Under the pieces are notes generated by a model, which ran no database searches, was not told where the DNA came from, and was given only the letters and a program-made list of their open reading frames with translations. Positions 25,269-31,944 of a stretch of 64,000 nucleotides of DNA are shown here, in pieces. The stretch's first letter is position 1. Each line of letters starts with the position of its first letter. Source of the DNA: Exiguobacterium acetylicum DSM 20416 (GTDB lineage Bacteria > Bacillota > Bacilli > Exiguobacteriales > Exiguobacteriaceae); contig NZ_JNIR01000001.1 in NCBI RefSeq assembly GCF_000702605.1, forward strand, positions 1,168,501 through 1,232,500, given 5' to 3'. Position numbers and translations under genes: made by a program.

Positions 25269-25868
25269 ATGCCAAAACAAGTCAATCACGAAGAACGCAA
25301 ACGCCTCATCGCCGAAGCGACGTGGCGCACGATTTCTCAAGTCGGTATTGAACAAGCCAGTGTCCGGACGATCGCCAAGGAAGCGGGACTCTCACTGGGT
25401 GCCTTGCGATATTACTTCACGACCCAGGACGAGTTGCTCCGCTTCTCGATGGACCTCGTCCAAGAACGGGTCCAAGCACGCATCACAACCATTTTCGAGA
25501 AAGGAGGAACCCCGGAAGAAACGTTATGTGACGTCTTACTTGAGGTCTTACCTTATGCACCCGAGCATCAGCTCGAGATGCAGGTCTGGTTTCAATTCAT
25601 GATGTCCGCGTATTCATCGCAAGCGACGGAAAATCCGGACGATATCTACCATATGGTTCAAGTACTGTTGACACAGATTCCGGACGGTACACTCCGCGCG
25701 GGCTTAGACATTGCGCTTGAGAGTGAACGGCTCGCAGCACTCGTTGACGGGTTAGCCTTTCATGCTCTGTTTCGACCGGAACGATTACCAAAAGAACGCC
25801 TGCGTCATGTCCTCGTCCATCACTTGAACGCCCTCTTCGTCCGTCCTTTAGCGATCGACGACAAATAA
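25269..25868 (+). CDS. TetR/AcrR family transcriptional regulator
   Basis: A 199-residue repressor-type protein. The N-terminal HTH is clear: ERKRLIAEATWRTISQVGIEQASVRTIAKEAGLSLGALRYYF (described in pieces: helix 1 up to TWRTI, recognition helix LSLGALRYYF). The C-terminal ligand-binding domain resembles the BetI/TetR_C_6 group. The likely targets are itself, the divergent membrane protein gene at 24631, or the convergent MATE exporter operon. There is no strong ribosome-binding site upstream of the ATG, so translation may be weak or leaderless. Confidence 0.88.
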   Translation: MPKQVNHEERKRLIAEATWRTISQVGIEQASVRTIAKEAGLSLGALRYYFTTQDELLRFSMDLVQERVQARITTIFEKGGTPEETLCDVLLEVLPYAPEHQLEMQVWFQFMMSAYSSQATENPDDIYHMVQVLLTQIPDGTLRAGLDIALESERLAALVDGLAFHALFRPERLPKERLRHVLVHHLNALFVRPLAIDDK

Positions 25869-25909
25869 CCCGCTGTTCCCTTTGCGCGCGAGGGAAACAG
25901 CGGGTTTTT
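25869..25909 (+). terminator. Rho-independent terminator of the TetR gene
   Basis: CCCGCTGTTCCCT pairs with AGGGAAACAGCGGG around a GCGCGC-rich loop, followed by five T. The convergent MATE gene ends at 25909. Confidence 0.85.
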
Positions 25910-27198
25910 CATCGTCTTGCTTCTACGAGAATCAACGATAAGGAGCGAATCAAGAAGAAGGTCAAAAACGCTGCCCAGACGCCCTGATTTCCAAAAGTCG
26001 GTGTCAACAGGAGGACGACCGCAAAACCAATTCCTGCTTGAATCATTGAGTTCCGGACCGGTGTTGCTTCAACCCGCCCGGCAAAGATGCCTTCGTAGAT
26101 CATCACCCAACCGGCAAGGAGCGGTAGGATGATGATCCAGAAGTAATAATCGTCCGCCGCATTTAGGATTGCCTCTTCTGAAGTGAACAACTGAAGGAGC
26201 GGTGTCTCAAGGAAGAGGAGCACCAGTGACCAGAAGACGACCGAGTAGAATCCAAACGTCCGTGCCAAACGGACACTCGTCCGGTATCCTGCCTGATCTT
26301 GATGCCCTCTCGCCCGACCGACGAGAACCGTTGACGCATGACCGAGTCCACCGAACCAGTAAGAAATCAGATACTGGATTTGTAGCAGAATCGCGTTGGC
26401 TGCGAGGATATCCGGTCCGAATTGTCCACCAGCACGTGTGAACCAGCCGGTGACGAGTAGAAGGAAAATCGTGCGAATGAACAAGTCACGATTGACTTGA
26501 AAGAATTGACGGTACGCTTGCCATGCCGTCAAGGCACGCCATTCATCATGCGTCATCGATAAATGACCACGGATCAGGTACAGAGCACAGACGACGATGC
26601 TGATCTCCGCGATGACGGTCGCAACCGCAATTCCAGCAACACCGGCATTCAATCCGTAGACGAATCCGATATCGAGAACGACATTGACTCCTGTACTAAA
26701 CAATTGGACGAACAAGGCGTGCTTGACCTGACCGGTACCAATCAACCAGCCGAGTAACGCATAACCCATCAACACGAACGGTGCGCCAATCATCCGGTAT
26801 GAAATATACGTCTTGACCGCATCTAGCAAGTCAGCGGGTGGTGCAAGTAAGTACAGTCCGATTTGCTCGAGCGGCTGTCGGAACAACAGGATGAGCAGAC
26901 CGATACAAGCTGCTAAAAACAGCGGTCGGTAAAGTGACGTCCGTAAGGCGTGCACGTCATTCGCCCCACTTGCTTGGGCGCTGAATCCTGTCGTACTCAC
27001 TTTTAAGAAACCAAACAACCAGTAAATCGTATTGAAGAAGACGGCTCCGACAGCGATGCCTCCGATCGCCCTCGGATCACCGGATTGACCGATGACGACG
27101 GTATCGGTTACACCAAGTAAGGGTGTCGCAATACTTGAGAGAATCAGCGGATAAGCGAGTAACCAGTACGTTTTGTGGGTCGGTTGTGCGTTCACCAT
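25909..27198 (-). CDS. MATE family efflux transporter
   Basis: A multidrug-and-toxin-extrusion type exporter (429 residues, about 12 membrane segments) of the DinF/NorM group. The N-terminal PLILSSIATPLLGVTDTVVIG and the repeated half around residue 230-260 match the MatE fold. The ATG overlaps the stop of the upstream ABC ATPase gene by 7 bp, so it is the last gene of the Zur-like-controlled nik-type operon. Its substrate could be a metallophore or a drug; the position favours a metal-related role but this is inference. Confidence 0.88.
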   Translation of the reverse strand: MVNAQPTHKTYWLLAYPLILSSIATPLLGVTDTVVIGQSGDPRAIGGIAVGAVFFNTIYWLFGFLKVSTTGFSAQASGANDVHALRTSLYRPLFLAACIGLLILLFRQPLEQIGLYLLAPPADLLDAVKTYISYRMIGAPFVLMGYALLGWLIGTGQVKHALFVQLFSTGVNVVLDIGFVYGLNAGVAGIAVATVIAEISIVVCALYLIRGHLSMTHDEWRALTAWQAYRQFFQVNRDLFIRTIFLLLVTGWFTRAGGQFGPDILAANAILLQIQYLISYWFGGLGHASTVLVGRARGHQDQAGYRTSVRLARTFGFYSVVFWSLVLLFLETPLLQLFTSEEAILNAADDYYFWIIILPLLAGWVMIYEGIFAGRVEATPVRNSMIQAGIGFAVVLLLTPTFGNQGVWAAFLTFFLIRSLSLILVEARR

Positions 27199-27929
27199 GT
27201 TCCGGCCTCGACGAATCGTTGGGTATACGCGCTACCTGATTCCAATCGATCAATCAAATCAACAGCGCGACCGTCACGTAAGACGAGTGTTTCCGAACAG
27301 AGGCGCCGGATGAAATCAATATCGTGCGAGATCAATACAAGACTGACACCGAGTGTCTGCTGCAAGCGTTCCAGTAGCTCGATGATCTGCGCCCGAGAGA
27401 CGACATCAAGTCCCGTTGTCGGTTCATCCATCACGATAATGTCGGGTTCGATCGAAATCGCGCGGGCGATCGCGGCACGCTGAATTTGTCCCCCACTCAA
27501 TTGATGGGGCACTCGATCGAATAACTGCTCCTCGACCCCGACAGCAAGTGCGAGGGCTGTAATGAGATTTTCTTCTGACGTCGCTGGGAAATGCCGCAAG
27601 ATCGGACGATGCCGACGAAACGGTTCAAGAATCGATTCCCGCACCGTCCATTCTGGATTAAAGGAAGCGAGAGGATGTTGAAAGACGGCTTGAATAGCTC
27701 GTCGCTCGTTTCGGTGCCCACTCGGAAATGCCTTTTCATGTAAGGAAATCAAACCATGCGTGGGTTTGAGCAGACCGAGAATCAATCGTCCGAGTGTCGT
27801 CTTGCCACCCCCACTCTCCCCGATGATGCCAATTGACGCCTTTTTCGTCACGTGAAATGAGATATTCGACAAGATAGACTGACTCTTTATCTGATAAGTA
27901 AGATCTGTTACGGATAAGACTGGTGACAT
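27192..27929 (-). CDS. Nickel/peptide-type ABC transporter ATPase (NikE/OppF-like)
   Basis: ABC ATPase of 245 residues with Walker A GESGGGKTT (about 37-45), Q-loop FQHPLASFNPEW, signature LSGGQIQR and Walker B IIVMDEPTTGLD. The QHPLxSFNP segment is typical of the Opp/Dpp/Nik family. It is the second ATPase of the importer, overlapping the first by 22 bp and the MATE gene by 7 bp. It lacks the C-terminal oligopeptide-transporter extension of longer OppF proteins. Confidence 0.9.
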   Translation of the reverse strand: MSPVLSVTDLTYQIKSQSILSNISFHVTKKASIGIIGESGGGKTTLGRLILGLLKPTHGLISLHEKAFPSGHRNERRAIQAVFQHPLASFNPEWTVRESILEPFRRHRPILRHFPATSEENLITALALAVGVEEQLFDRVPHQLSGGQIQRAAIARAISIEPDIIVMDEPTTGLDVVSRAQIIELLERLQQTLGVSLVLISHDIDFIRRLCSETLVLRDGRAVDLIDRLESGSAYTQRFVEAGTW

Positions 27930-28654
27930 GAACTCTTCCTTTCTTCCAGTGATGTACGATGCGCTTGCATCAAGCTCATCGTGAACGGATGACGACTTTG
28001 CTCGATCATCTGTGGTGTTCCCGTCTCGACGATTCGTCCATCCTGCATTAAGACGAGTTGCTCTCCATAATGTAAGGCAGGTCCTAATTCGTGGGTGACG
28101 AACAAAATCGTTGCCCCGTACTGGTGTTGGTATTCGGTCAACCAGTCGAGTAAACGACGTGTCAACACAGGATCGAGCGCCGTCGTTAGTTCATCCGCTA
28201 AAATCAATCGTGGTTTTAAGGTGACGGCAAACAGGATCGCGAACCGTTGCAATTGCCCACCGCTCAACTCTCCTGGATATCGGTCCAACCAGGTCGGGTC
28301 CAACTCAAGCGTTCGCAAGACGTCATCGATGTAAGGATGATCCATCTTTCGTCCATGTGCGCGATATGTATCCCGTAACATCTGACGCATCGTCAAAAAC
28401 GGAAGAAACGCATCGGTATACTGCTGTGGTATGTAACCAATATCGAGACCACGCCGAAGAGGTTCGTCCGAGATGACTTCTCCGCTCGACGACATCCCGT
28501 CCGGCAATCGATCCAGTAATCGTTTAAGCAAGAGCGTCTTACCGCTCCCGCTCGCTCCGACGAGACAGATGAATCGATGAGCTGGTAACGATAGATTCAT
28601 GTCATGCAGAAGGACGTGTTTCGCCCGAACGTGTAAGTTCCGAATCTGAATCAT
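27908..28654 (-). CDS. Nickel/peptide-type ABC transporter ATPase (NikD/OppD-like)
   Basis: ABC ATPase of 248 residues: Walker A GASGSGKTL (about 33-41), YIPQQYTDAFLPFLT Q-loop, signature LSGGQLQR and Walker B LILADELTTALD. It is the first of two ATPases of the importer. The start ATG lies 53 bp inside the upstream permease gene, preceded by AAAGGAGGACAAGTAA, a strong ribosome-binding site that supports this start. It energises the two permeases encoded upstream. Confidence 0.9.
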   Translation of the reverse strand: MIQIRNLHVRAKHVLLHDMNLSLPAHRFICLVGASGSGKTLLLKRLLDRLPDGMSSSGEVISDEPLRRGLDIGYIPQQYTDAFLPFLTMRQMLRDTYRAHGRKMDHPYIDDVLRTLELDPTWLDRYPGELSGGQLQRFAILFAVTLKPRLILADELTTALDPVLTRRLLDWLTEYQHQYGATILFVTHELGPALHYGEQLVLMQDGRIVETGTPQMIEQSRHPFTMSLMQAHRTSLEERKSSCHQSYP

Positions 28655-29429
28655 TTACTTGTCCTCCTTTTTTCTTCATCCACCGTGTCCATCCCATCGT
28701 CATAACGACGGTCAAGACGATGCACGCACCTGGCAAAAGCATGAGCCGGGGTGCGGAACTGAAATAGGGACGTCCTTCATTCAACATCGCTCCCCACTCT
28801 GGCAGTGGTGCTTGGACACCAAGTCCAATATAAGAGAACGCTGATAAGAATAAGATGACTTTGCCGACATCCAAACTCATTAAGACGACGACTTGCCGGA
28901 TGATAGGCGGAAGGATGTGGCGTCGTAAGATCATCCTGTCTGTTAACCCATTGATGCGTGCCATGCTGACGTATGGCTTTTGCATCGTCTCGGTCACGAG
29001 TGTTTCACTTAATCGCGCGTAGGAAATCCATTTAATGAGCAGAATCGCAAAGATTAAACTTCGAGGACTGGCACCCAATAGTCCGGCGATGACGAGTGCT
29101 AGAACAGTGTCCGGGAAAATCACGAGACCATCTTCTAATCGATGAATCACCCGCTTGAGACGTCCATCATAAAAACCGGCTAGACAGCCAAGGCAGGTAC
29201 CGACGCATGCCGTGAGCAACACCGTAAGCAGGCTGAAACCTAAGGATATCAAACCAGCTAAAAAAAGACGAGCTGCGAAATCTCGTCCTAAACCGTCTGT
29301 TCCGAGCCAATGTTCGAATGAAGCAGGCTCAAGTCTCTTTGCTACGTTTGTATCAAATGGACTAACATATACGGTATATGAAATAAATAGTAGGAGACAT
29401 CCTCCGAAAATGAGCCATGTTTTTTTCAT
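28602..29429 (-). CDS. Nickel/peptide-type ABC transporter permease (NikC/DppC-like)
   Basis: Inner-membrane permease of 275 residues with the N-terminal anchor, HWLGTDGLGRDFAARL (the DppC/NikC N-terminal signature) and the cytoplasmic EAA-type loop in VSMARINGLTDRMILRRHILP. The ATG overlaps the stop of the preceding permease gene by 4 bp (ATGA). The 3' part overlaps the downstream ATPase gene by 53 bp, and its C-terminal tail is hydrophilic there (DSDSELTRSGETRPSA). Confidence 0.9.
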   Translation of the reverse strand: MKKTWLIFGGCLLLFISYTVYVSPFDTNVAKRLEPASFEHWLGTDGLGRDFAARLFLAGLISLGFSLLTVLLTACVGTCLGCLAGFYDGRLKRVIHRLEDGLVIFPDTVLALVIAGLLGASPRSLIFAILLIKWISYARLSETLVTETMQKPYVSMARINGLTDRMILRRHILPPIIRQVVVLMSLDVGKVILFLSAFSYIGLGVQAPLPEWGAMLNEGRPYFSSAPRLMLLPGACIVLTVVMTMGWTRWMKKKGGQVNDSDSELTRSGETRPSA

Positions 29430-30361
29430 GTGTGTATTCCCTTCTGCCAATCTGGTCGTAACGCCCGGTTTAACGACCGGATACCTTGATGCAAGACAAG
29501 AATGATGCCTGTCGTCAGCAAGATGTACCCTTGAATCAGTGGGTAATCACGTTGCAAAATCGCATCGACCATTAACTTTCCGACACCTGGATACGCGAAC
29601 AGGACTTCGAGGACGACGACACCTCCGGCAAGACTGCCGAGCGTCAGACCGAAAACGGACAGAACCGGCGGCAAACTGCCGCGTAACGCATAACGCCAAA
29701 GGATCGTCCGCTCGGATATGCCACGCATCCGTGCCAACTCGATGTACGGTTGGCTCAGTTCACGGCGTAGATTCAGTCGAATCAATGGAATATAGACGCT
29801 CGCAAGTGGAAAGCCGAGTGATAGAGCTGGGAGGACGAGTGACGTCATCCCCTCCCTTCCCATTACAGGTAACCATCCGAGACGGACGGCAAACAGGTCG
29901 ACGAGCAACAGACCGATCCAAAAACCAGGCACGGCCGCTCCACTCATGCTGACAAGGTGCGCAAGACGAACGATACTTCGGCGCGTCGTCAAGGCGCTAC
30001 CGATTCCAAGGGGTAAGGCGATCAATAAGGCGATCGTAAGACCACCAAGTGCCAGCTCCGCCGTCACAAGATAACTCTCTAACAACATCTCGATGACCGG
30101 TCGCCCCGTTTGCAACGAGTTTCCGAGACGCAAGGTGAGTATGTCTTGCAGCCAACGAATGTATTGAACGAGCAACGGCTGATCGTATCCTAATTCACGG
30201 CGCGCGGCTTCGATTTGTTCGGGCGTTGCTGATAATTCATCGATATTCAATAACGTCAAGACCGGATCACCCGGCAGTAACCGCAGCAAGACAAAACAAC
30301 CGAACGTGATGAGTAAAGTGAATAGACTCAGCGACAGCAGTCGTTTGACGATGGAACGCAT
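29426..30361 (-). CDS. Nickel/peptide-type ABC transporter permease (NikB/DppB-like)
   Basis: Inner-membrane permease of 311 residues. N-terminal FVLLRLLPGDPV and a Gln-Pro-Leu stretch (YDQPLLVQYIRWL) are diagnostic of the DppB/NikB family, and the EAA loop ELARMRGISERTILWRYALR is present. The ATG overlaps the substrate-binding protein gene's stop (TGATG). Partner of the NikC-like permease downstream. Confidence 0.9.
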   Translation of the reverse strand: MRSIVKRLLSLSLFTLLITFGCFVLLRLLPGDPVLTLLNIDELSATPEQIEAARRELGYDQPLLVQYIRWLQDILTLRLGNSLQTGRPVIEMLLESYLVTAELALGGLTIALLIALPLGIGSALTTRRSIVRLAHLVSMSGAAVPGFWIGLLLVDLFAVRLGWLPVMGREGMTSLVLPALSLGFPLASVYIPLIRLNLRRELSQPYIELARMRGISERTILWRYALRGSLPPVLSVFGLTLGSLAGGVVVLEVLFAYPGVGKLMVDAILQRDYPLIQGYILLTTGIILVLHQGIRSLNRALRPDWQKGIHT

Positions 30362-31878
30362 CAATCGTTCACCTGCAGCGTATTCGTGATCATATAGTAC
30401 TCACTTTTTTCTGTTTTCCATCCTTTAACGCGTTTGCCGTCGTAGGCAACGAGAGTCGATGGATGGAGGAGAAAACTATTATAGCGGCGTTCATCAACGT
30501 AACGGGCAATCTCTTCAGCAAGAATCGATCGATCCTCGACCTTTAACGTCCGGTTCAACGTCTCGATCTGTTTCGTCAACTTCGGATCCGCGACACGACT
30601 GAAGTTCAGTCCCCCGTTCGGATGATAGGTCGCGTTTAAATAATAACCAGCATCCCCACGCGGAGCTGTCAGATTGCTGTACGTCGCGATATCCCAGTCC
30701 CGGTTACTCGCCATGTATTCTTCTGGGACATCGATCTGTTTAATCGTGATTGTCACACCAATCTTTTTCGCGTCATCTTGAATGACTTGGGCAATCAACG
30801 GCAGGTCTGGTCGAGCCGCATACGTCAATAAAGTCAGTTTTAAAGGACGACCGTTCTTTTGCATCCGTCCGTTTTGTTTTGTATAACCGGCTTGTTTGAG
30901 CCATTCCTCAGGCGTCTTCTGCACTTGTTGCGGGTAGTCCGGAGCAAATGGGAATGACGAGAGGAATGGACCACGCGCTGGCACCGCATATCCTTGGAGG
31001 ACGTGATCAACGAGTTGCTTTCGATTGATCAAAGCATCCATTGCCTGTCGGACTTCAAGAAATTGCATCGGACCGTTCGCGACATTCATCGTCAATTGAT
31101 GGACACGGAACGTATCCGTCGCTTGGACTGTCAAACCTTCAGACTTCAATTTCTTGACACTCTCGATTTCCGGACGATAGACGATGTCTGCCTGTCCGGC
31201 ACGCAAAGCGTTCGTCCGTGCGCCAGCGTCTTCGTTGAAAACAAAATCAACGGAATCAAGTTTCGCTTGTTCTTGCCAATAGGACTTAAAACGTTTTAAC
31301 TCGACTTTTGTTCCCGGAGCGAACCGCTCGACTTGGAACGGACCTGTTCCCATCGGTTCTTTCGTCACCCCGCTCGCCTTCGTGTCGATGATCGCTGTGT
31401 TTGGATTAACGAGTTCCGAGATGAACTCCGGATACGTCGTCTTCGTTTGGATGAGCACATCTGGTCCATCCGTTTTGATCGTTTCGATGTTCAAAGCATT
31501 CTTGACACCTGGATTTTCGTCGATCGAGCGTTCGAGAGACGATTTAACGGCGTCAGCATCAAGTTGTTTCCCGTTATGGAACGTCACGTCTTTCTGTAAG
31601 ACGATCCGCCACGTTCGCTTTCCTTCATAGGACCATTTCTTAGCAAGCCACGGCTCGACTGTCAATTGTTCATCATCAAGACGGACGAGCGTCTCCGTTA
31701 CCCCCGCGCGAAGCGGAACATAACTGCTGTCCCGATGCGGATCGAGTGATTGTGTCGCAAAGTTATAGACGAACGTCAAATGGTTTTGCTCTTGTGGCGT
31801 ATCAGAGGAGGCACAACCGGCAAGTGTCAATCCGAGGAAGACACTACCAATGAGGCTCGCTGTTTTATATGTAGACAT
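30361..31878 (-). CDS. Solute-binding lipoprotein of a nickel/metallophore/peptide-type ABC importer
   Basis: A family 5 extracellular binding protein (505 residues). The signal peptide ends in the lipobox LTLAGC. The SBP_bac_5 pattern is clear: LDPHRDSSYVPLRAGVTETLV, WRIVLQKDVTFHNGKQLDADAV, KEPMGTGPFQVERFAPG. It resembles NikA/CntA more than peptide-only OppA. The order binding protein, two permeases, two ATPases is the nik/cnt layout. The GTGGAGAACA site precedes the ATG. The promoter carries two Zur-like boxes, so the likely ligand is a zinc(-chelator) complex; nickel or peptide cannot be excluded. Confidence 0.85.
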   Translation of the reverse strand: MSTYKTASLIGSVFLGLTLAGCASSDTPQEQNHLTFVYNFATQSLDPHRDSSYVPLRAGVTETLVRLDDEQLTVEPWLAKKWSYEGKRTWRIVLQKDVTFHNGKQLDADAVKSSLERSIDENPGVKNALNIETIKTDGPDVLIQTKTTYPEFISELVNPNTAIIDTKASGVTKEPMGTGPFQVERFAPGTKVELKRFKSYWQEQAKLDSVDFVFNEDAGARTNALRAGQADIVYRPEIESVKKLKSEGLTVQATDTFRVHQLTMNVANGPMQFLEVRQAMDALINRKQLVDHVLQGYAVPARGPFLSSFPFAPDYPQQVQKTPEEWLKQAGYTKQNGRMQKNGRPLKLTLLTYAARPDLPLIAQVIQDDAKKIGVTITIKQIDVPEEYMASNRDWDIATYSNLTAPRGDAGYYLNATYHPNGGLNFSRVADPKLTKQIETLNRTLKVEDRSILAEEIARYVDERRYNSFLLHPSTLVAYDGKRVKGWKTEKSEYYMITNTLQVND

Positions 31879-31892
31879 TGTTCTCCACCTTT

Positions 31893-31913
31893 AATTCGGA
31901 ATAATTACGTTTT
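31893..31913. promoter_or_regulatory. Zur-box-like sequence 1
   Basis: The plus-strand sequence AATTCGGAAT-A-ATTACGTTTT has three mismatches to the Bacillus Zur box halves AAATCGTAAT and ATTACGATTT. It lies between the predicted -10 and the start codon of the binding-protein gene, a position that would block transcription when zinc is plentiful. Confidence 0.5.
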
Positions 31914-31915
31914 AC

Positions 31916-31944
31916 ATCATATCGTAATGATTCCGATTTAACAA
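31916..31944 (-). promoter_or_regulatory. Sigma-A-type promoter of the metal/peptide importer operon
   Basis: On the minus strand TTGTTA (31944-31939), a 17-bp spacer and TATGAT (31921-31916) fit a vegetative promoter. It overlaps Zur-like box 2 and faces the operon 31878 to 25909. Confidence 0.65.
31919..31939. promoter_or_regulatory. Zur-box-like sequence 2
   Basis: ATATCGTAAT-G-ATTCCGATTT differs from the Zur consensus halves AAATCGTAAT and ATTACGATTT at two positions. It occupies the spacer between the predicted -35 and -10 hexamers, a classical repressor location. Confidence 0.65.

Follow-up and report, generated by a model that had tools for sequence, protein, structure and literature searches.

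The window analyzed here is a stretch of 64,000 nucleotides of the Exiguobacterium acetylicum DSM 20416 genome. Its minus strand carries an operon (31878-25909) of six reading frames, each overlapping the next when starts are assigned mechanically:

30361..31878, minus strand: family-5 substrate-binding lipoprotein, NikA/Opp5A type (NF045468, 674.3 bits; cut-off 600)
29426..30364, minus strand: permease, NikB/OppB type, overlapping the binding-protein gene by 4 bp (Opp2B model, 332 of 350)
28602..29450, minus strand: permease, NikC/OppC type (best NCBIfam model Opp2C, 269 of 300)
27908..28654, minus strand: ABC ATPase, NikD type (best model NikD, 139 of 319)
27192..27929, minus strand: ABC ATPase, NikE type (best model NikE, 192 of 333)
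25909..27198, minus strand: MATE-family exporter, final gene of the operon (PF01554, 107 bits; TIGR00797, 216.5 against a cut-off of 147.4)

The permeases and ATPases all have Nik/Opp models as their best matches, and all four score below cut-off. The MATE gene overlaps the preceding ATPase gene by 7 bp, and its product passes the cut-offs of PF01554 and TIGR00797, with the DinF model below cut-off. The region has 9 terminator-like hits, about as many as shuffled sequence gives (mean 6.3, sd 2.8), so operon boundaries were not drawn from them. Convergent with the MATE gene is a BetI-like TetR-family gene (window 25269-25868, plus strand), and this arrangement is retained in E. indicum, E. undae and an Exiguobacterium metagenome-assembled genome (MAG).

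The binding protein lies above the cut-off of NF045468, a family with the curated name "nickel ABC transporter substrate-binding protein." It scores well below two related models, the NikA model TIGR02294 (144.5 of 393) and the CntA model NF047575 (90.5 of 800). Its best relative in the PDB is 3t66 (614.6 bits), presumably a protein of B. halodurans, and SaNikA (4ofj) matches with 263.7 bits. The nearest named relatives are proteins of E. indicum and an Exiguobacterium MAG, at 94-95% identity.

Between the binding-protein start at 31878 and the chemoreceptor-like gene upstream there is a single promoter-like site, TTGTTA-17-TATGAT on the minus strand. The initial annotation had placed two Zur-box-like operators over this promoter, in an interval (31893-31944) that spans the second box to the -35, with the better box between -35 and -10 and a weaker copy past the -10. 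On closer inspection, the features are arranged just as described:

31944-31939, minus strand: -35-like element TTGTTA, a consensus match (TTGTTA or TTGATA in the 15-row alignment described below)
31921-31916, minus strand: -10-like element TATGAT, a consensus match (invariant in the same alignment)
31919-31939, no strand: 21-mer of Zur-box-like operator 1, with core 31922-31936 TCGTAATGATTCCGA, also given as ATATCGTAATGATTCCGATTT (minus-strand reading TCGGAATCATTACGA); 1 mismatch to TCGTAATNATTACGA
31893-31913, no strand: 21-mer of Zur-box-like operator 2, with core 31896-31910 TCGGAATAATTACGT (ACGTAATTATTCCGA in the minus-strand description of the gap); 2 mismatches to TCGTAATNATTACGA

Both cores are 7-1-7 palindromes, and TCGTAATNATTACGA is what we take to be the Zur-box consensus of the B. 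subtilis literature. A nearly identical stretch occurs in a primer used for EMSA on a B. anthracis promoter that Zur binds (PMC6336718). Core 1 lies entirely within the 17-bp spacer, and core 2 lies just downstream of the -10, at a distance of 5 bp; core to core, the two are 26 bp apart. The promoter match taken by itself is at chance level (1 found, 0.7 expected in shuffles), and the call is supported instead by the conservation of both hexamers across the Exiguobacterium alignment. In addition to a 7-1-7 repeat close to TCGTAATNATTACGA and overlap with a promoter recognized by consensus match, the assignment as operators draws on the presence of a Zur-like gene and of other boxed zinc genes, described below.

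Could the boxes be chance palindromes in an A+T-rich gap? When up to three mismatches are allowed, the full window shows no enrichment, with 8 cores against 5.0 expected (sd 2.06) and 12 of 100 shuffles reaching 8, so that the signal of the window is this one pair. At up to two mismatches, however, these are the only two cores in the window. Among 150 first-order simulated windows, the mean was 0.39 such cores; nine windows had at least two, and none had a pair 20-35 bp apart. Likewise, 20,001 shuffles of the 112-bp gap gave at least one core in 19 trials and a pair in none. Moreover, all 13 carriers examined in the family (nine in the genus, four in its sister genus) retain the box pair and its 26-bp spacing. 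Given the absence of the pair from every simulation and shuffle and its conservation across relatives, we dropped chance as an explanation and regard it as extremely improbable.

An alignment of 15 Exiguobacterium rows, of which 12 are distinct, shows variable flanks around conserved elements: the -35 and -10, the two palindromes and the 26-bp distance between the palindromes. In one row, L056, the second core has 3 mismatches. Among 11 named relatives of the binding protein (44-95% identity), 10 have an upstream core with at most two mismatches, and Priestia has one with 3 mismatches; five Bifidobacterium matches (24-25% identity) were left out of the comparison of relatives. A survey of 398 Bacilli genomes, a sample from a larger group, yielded 48 relatives at E <=1e-120 in 46 genomes, and 41 of these have a core with at most two mismatches within 300 bp upstream (34 of 41 survey rows, two of them in the genus, plus seven other genus members). 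Of the seven that do not, four (L155, L157, L158 and L159) have a core at 3 mismatches (p = 0.017-0.030 in shuffles that, as for the FAD loci below, preserve base composition only), and L161, L162 and L169 have no core with three or fewer mismatches upstream. L169 follows an EamA gene which itself has a 2-mismatch core upstream (L200:6935); L162 lies downstream of an opine cluster, and the sequence inspected there contains no core of this kind. As a control, paralogous family-5 binding-protein genes in Exiguobacterium were inspected in the same way, and none of 20 has a core with at most two mismatches (one of 21 loci was dropped for want of a tblastn hit; an earlier run, in which 8 of 21 were dropped, gave none of 13). 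At 21-22 bp ahead of the assigned start, five of these paralogs (L065, L067, L074, L076 and L081) carry a Fur-box-like sequence, TGAAAATGATTATCA, a sign that their transporter may be under iron control.

Zinc repression, as proposed in the initial annotation, calls for a zur gene, and the genome encodes three Fur-family proteins, one of them Zur-like. Of the other two, L049 is Fur (NF051892, 255.5; cut-off 220) and L047 is nearest to the PerR models (126.5; cut-off 180). The Zur-like protein, L048:5526-5957, is encoded directly behind ABC ATPase and permease genes, for which the best NCBIfam models are the zinc transporter components AztA and AztB, both below cut-off. Zinc ligands of B. subtilis Zur are given as E70, C84, H90, H92, C95, C98, C132 and C135 (PMC6336718). 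Matched by position rather than against the B. subtilis Zur sequence itself, the Exiguobacterium protein has E72, C86, H92, H94, C97, C100, C135 and C138 at all eight places. Its top NCBIfam scores are to Fur and PerR models, far below cut-off, and the E. coli-type Zur model NF008646 gives 34.8 of 167, in an output that contained no Bacillus-type Zur model. The PDB relatives are nearly equal: PerR 2fe3 at 69.9 bits, 3mwm at 69.4 and FurB 2o03 at 66.5, the latter two being zinc-type regulators. Sequence models alone leave the identity of the protein unsettled; we call it Zur because of its gene position, its zinc ligands and the regulon. A weak core, GCGTAATTATTCCGT (3 mismatches; L048:3878-3892), lies 43 bp ahead of adcC in the adcC-adcB-zur cluster and may reflect zur autoregulation. 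With only this 3-mismatch core, that promoter was left out of the regulon count.

A genome search for further Zur boxes, suggested in the initial annotation, was carried out with the 21-bp pattern at up to three mismatches, which gave 6 sites in the E. acetylicum genome and none for a reversed-pattern control:

783848: Zur-like box, ahead of a gene for an FAD/NAD(P)-binding protein
841672 and 841721: Zur-like boxes, ahead of a COG0523 GTPase gene
1200393 and 1200419: Zur-like boxes, importer operon under study
2492046: Zur-like box, ahead of a ZnuA-family gene (PF01297, 260 bits)

The bare 15-bp core at up to two mismatches gave 28 sites against 5 for its control; about 20 of these, judged by eye, lie inside mechanical reading frames and look like chance, and for this reason the 21-bp pattern was chosen to define the regulon. 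The GTPase passes the cut-offs of PF02492 and PF07683, with 451.8 of 600 for the ZigA model. No core with three or fewer mismatches precedes a second ZnuA-family gene (2432258) within 500 bp. Across 19 Exiguobacterium genomes, the 21-bp pattern gave 77 sites against 1 for the control. Of the 75 listed (the other two belong to genome G018), 72 are upstream of znuA, the COG0523 gene, the importer or the FAD gene, leaving three strays (G001:C1:605921, G014:C1:1453061 and G014:C2:31030); importer sites that lacked a separate locus were assigned by the genome coordinates of the importer. A box precedes both znuA and the COG0523 gene in all 19 genomes, the importer in nine of nine carriers and the FAD gene in six of six.

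The FAD/NAD(P)-binding protein (L050:3891-5045, or C1:783890-785044 in the E. acetylicum genome) matches PF13454 with 36.3 bits and has no PDB relative at E 0.001. Matches to it occur in 64 genomes; of the 30 of these loci that were examined (L209-L238), 27 have a core of two or fewer mismatches in the 300 bp upstream. This uncharacterized protein is, by prediction, a recurrent Zur target.

Besides the Zur-like protein, the genome encodes Fur and a PerR-like one, and Fur and PerR boxes are similar 7-1-7 palindromes, so the same sites could in principle be bound by either regulator. Consistent with that alternative, in rows lacking a good Zur core the best Fur core is equal (L155, L158 and L159) or better (L161). 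Against it, the Zur core beats the best Fur/PerR core in every one of the 34 rows where a Zur core has two mismatches or fewer, and the sister sites precede znuA and the COG0523 gene. We dropped control by Fur or PerR because of the better fit wherever a good Zur core exists, and consider it very improbable. With a Zur-like gene, boxed zinc genes and conserved boxes, zinc repression finds good support in the sequence, and Zur control of the importer operon is, as far as sequence can show, close to certain. A search of the literature, in which RegPrecise and most subscription journals were not covered, found no description of the operon as Zur-controlled in the portions of the papers available.

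The genes around relatives of the importer bear on what it carries. In genome G389, a Zur-boxed cluster of genes for a CntL-like enzyme, an opine dehydrogenase and an EamA protein (L199:6213-9295) lies directly upstream of the importer, which has a box of its own. The CntL-like enzyme scores 142.5 of 350 and is over the cut-off of PF03059; the dehydrogenase is over the cut-off of PF10100 (469.7 bits) and scores 352.6 of 675 with the staphylopine model. We regard this cluster as a candidate zincophore locus. L201 encodes a binding protein that passes NF045468 (685.5 bits); its neighbors are genes for a CntL-like protein (153.9 of 350) and an opine dehydrogenase (PF10100). A COG0523 gene (ZigA model, 552.8 of 600) and the importer are transcribed divergently in genome G319, and the gap that they share holds two cores. 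In genome G346, the FAD-protein gene and the importer are on one strand, the former about 1.4 kb upstream, and there are cores of 1, 0 and 0 mismatches, the first before the FAD gene, the second between the two genes and the third before the importer.

The most direct rival to a zinc role is that the operon is under Zur control and yet imports nickel, or cobalt, either because Zur serves as a convenient sensor of divalent metals or because nickel replaces zinc. The curated NCBIfam name speaks for this, as do the nearest solved relatives, which are called nickel-binding, and a 2009 survey in which NikA orthologs were mostly nickel-specific (PMC2667541); Exiguobacterium is not named in the part of that survey accessible to us. 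However, neither of the two nickel enzymes searched for, urease alpha and LarA, was found in the 19 genus genomes; the controls gave matches in 4 and 2, respectively, of 14 reference genomes. Moreover, znuA and the COG0523 GTPase gene are co-boxed with the importer, some relatives are beside opine or COG0523 genes, and the NF045468 name also covers a protein of an opine cluster. The urease and LarA negatives, together with the relatives that adjoin opine-zincophore or COG0523 genes, make the "nickel" label on the importer doubtful, and nickel or cobalt import is in our judgment unlikely. Reassignment of the importer to zinc or a zinc chelate, the second part of the initial annotation's claim, fits both the gene context of the relatives and the urease and LarA negatives and stands as an inference; zinc, most likely as a chelate, is probably the cargo.

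A MATE gene follows the last ATPase gene on the same strand in 21 of the 48 loci, the window included, with approximate gaps of -7 to 96 bp; in the other 27 there is no MATE gene in the stretch fetched. Every main branch of the binding-protein tree includes MATE loci; several long branches of this tree make its deep joins uncertain. A label test on it gave no significant clustering of MATE relative to the opine loci, with values as low in 49 of 500 shuffles. Opine dehydrogenase (CntM, PF10100) was not found in any of the 19 genus genomes, in a search that also gave no match in the reference genomes. A PF10100 search across Bacilli gave matches in 52 of 398 genomes, 49 of them over cut-off. Among the 46 genomes with an importer, 14 have an opine dehydrogenase (13 of these belong to family f4), and none was found in the other 32. 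Canonical staphylopine or bacillopaline synthesis was dropped as a candidate for the genus, since its dehydrogenase was sought and not found in the 19 genomes.

These distributions leave room for a reading in which zinc enters in complex with peptides or amino acids, or as a chelate that other organisms make, and the MATE protein is a separate detoxification pump under the same promoter. This has Zur control and zinc in common with the reading that we prefer, so that the odds of the two overlap; they differ in the source of the chelator and in the role of the MATE protein. The lack of an opine dehydrogenase match in the genus and in 32 of the 46 importer genomes favors foreign chelates. In contrast, 21 of 48 loci, spread over every main branch of the tree, have a close and co-directional MATE gene, which suggests a functional link, and chelators other than opines could come from genes not yet recognized. 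We give foreign chelates with an independent pump perhaps one chance in three. That the MATE protein exports the chelator is plausible, at somewhat less than even odds.

Our preferred reading is that of a Zur-repressed importer of zinc, probably in chelated form. The operator, the Zur-like gene and the co-boxed zinc genes are observations made directly on the DNA; repression, the zinc cargo and the MATE role are what we infer from them, and the reading as a whole is likely to be correct. Zinc-loaded Zur would repress the operon 31878-25909, with one dimer occupying the spacer of the promoter and the other just past the -10, so that RNA polymerase would be blocked at high zinc. Upon zinc shortage, Zur would be released and the importer made. 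The importer would then bring in zinc, most likely on a small chelator; a chelated cargo is proposed because binding proteins of this type import metal chelates. In a weaker step, the MATE pump might export or recycle the chelator. More speculatively, Exiguobacterium and several other Bacilli might run a Zur-controlled zincophore cycle without the known opine chemistry, in which a chelator leaves via the MATE protein, binds zinc and returns through the Nik-type importer, the Zur-boxed FAD-binding protein perhaps helping to make or release it; taken with all of these details, the proposal is rather unlikely.

If such a cycle exists, much of the "nickel" family NF045468 would consist of zincophore receptors. 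The conserved Zur operators before 41 of the 48 relatives argue that a coherent part of the nickel-named importers serves zinc, a role that would alter predictions of metal use across many Bacilli genomes. The pairing with a MATE gene, in a genus where opine genes were not found, offers a lead toward a zinc chelator not yet described. What is new here is the combination of a Zur-controlled Nik-type importer and a MATE gene where opine genes were not found.

Among the closest known systems are the NikA/Opp5A nickel importers: the window protein is over the NF045468 cut-off and is related to 3t66 and SaNikA. It differs in having a MATE gene and Zur boxes (the SaNikA and 3t66 genes were outside the comparison), in a genus where urease and LarA were not found. 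In its regulation the locus is like the Zur regulons of B. subtilis and B. anthracis, where znuA and COG0523 genes are boxed and the yciC promoter has paired boxes (PMC6336718; Zur is reviewed in PMC6103462). Unlike the window operon, none of the six B. anthracis Zur promoters (among 11 genes) named in the accessible text belongs to a Nik/Opp importer (PMC6336718). In group B Streptococcus, transposon mutants of a nik operon gene and of another peptide/opine/nickel-type transporter, both with uncharacterized substrates, were underrepresented under calprotectin (PMC7667036, PMC9331361).

The S. aureus Cnt system (cntABCDF, CntE and staphylopine) likewise joins a Nik/Opp-family importer to an exporter. 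Cnt is controlled by Zur and also Fur, works for zinc with a zincophore partner, and is upregulated in zinc-poor medium and upon loss of Zur or Fur; binding proteins of its cluster bind metal chelates (PMC5666155). Unlike Cnt, the window protein is well below the CntA model, opine dehydrogenase was not found in the genus, and the exporter is of the MATE rather than the MFS type of S. aureus (PMC7438024). By the tests made, the window operon is not a Cnt system, but in its working it would resemble a Cnt-type zinc-chelate importer. The opine zincophore clusters of the bacillopaline type have biosynthetic genes that are absent from the vicinity of the importer and MATE genes in the window. Even so, relatives of its binding protein (L199 and L201) are encoded in or beside such clusters, and the opine zincophore clusters of fusobacteria encode a MatE exporter (PMC7438024).
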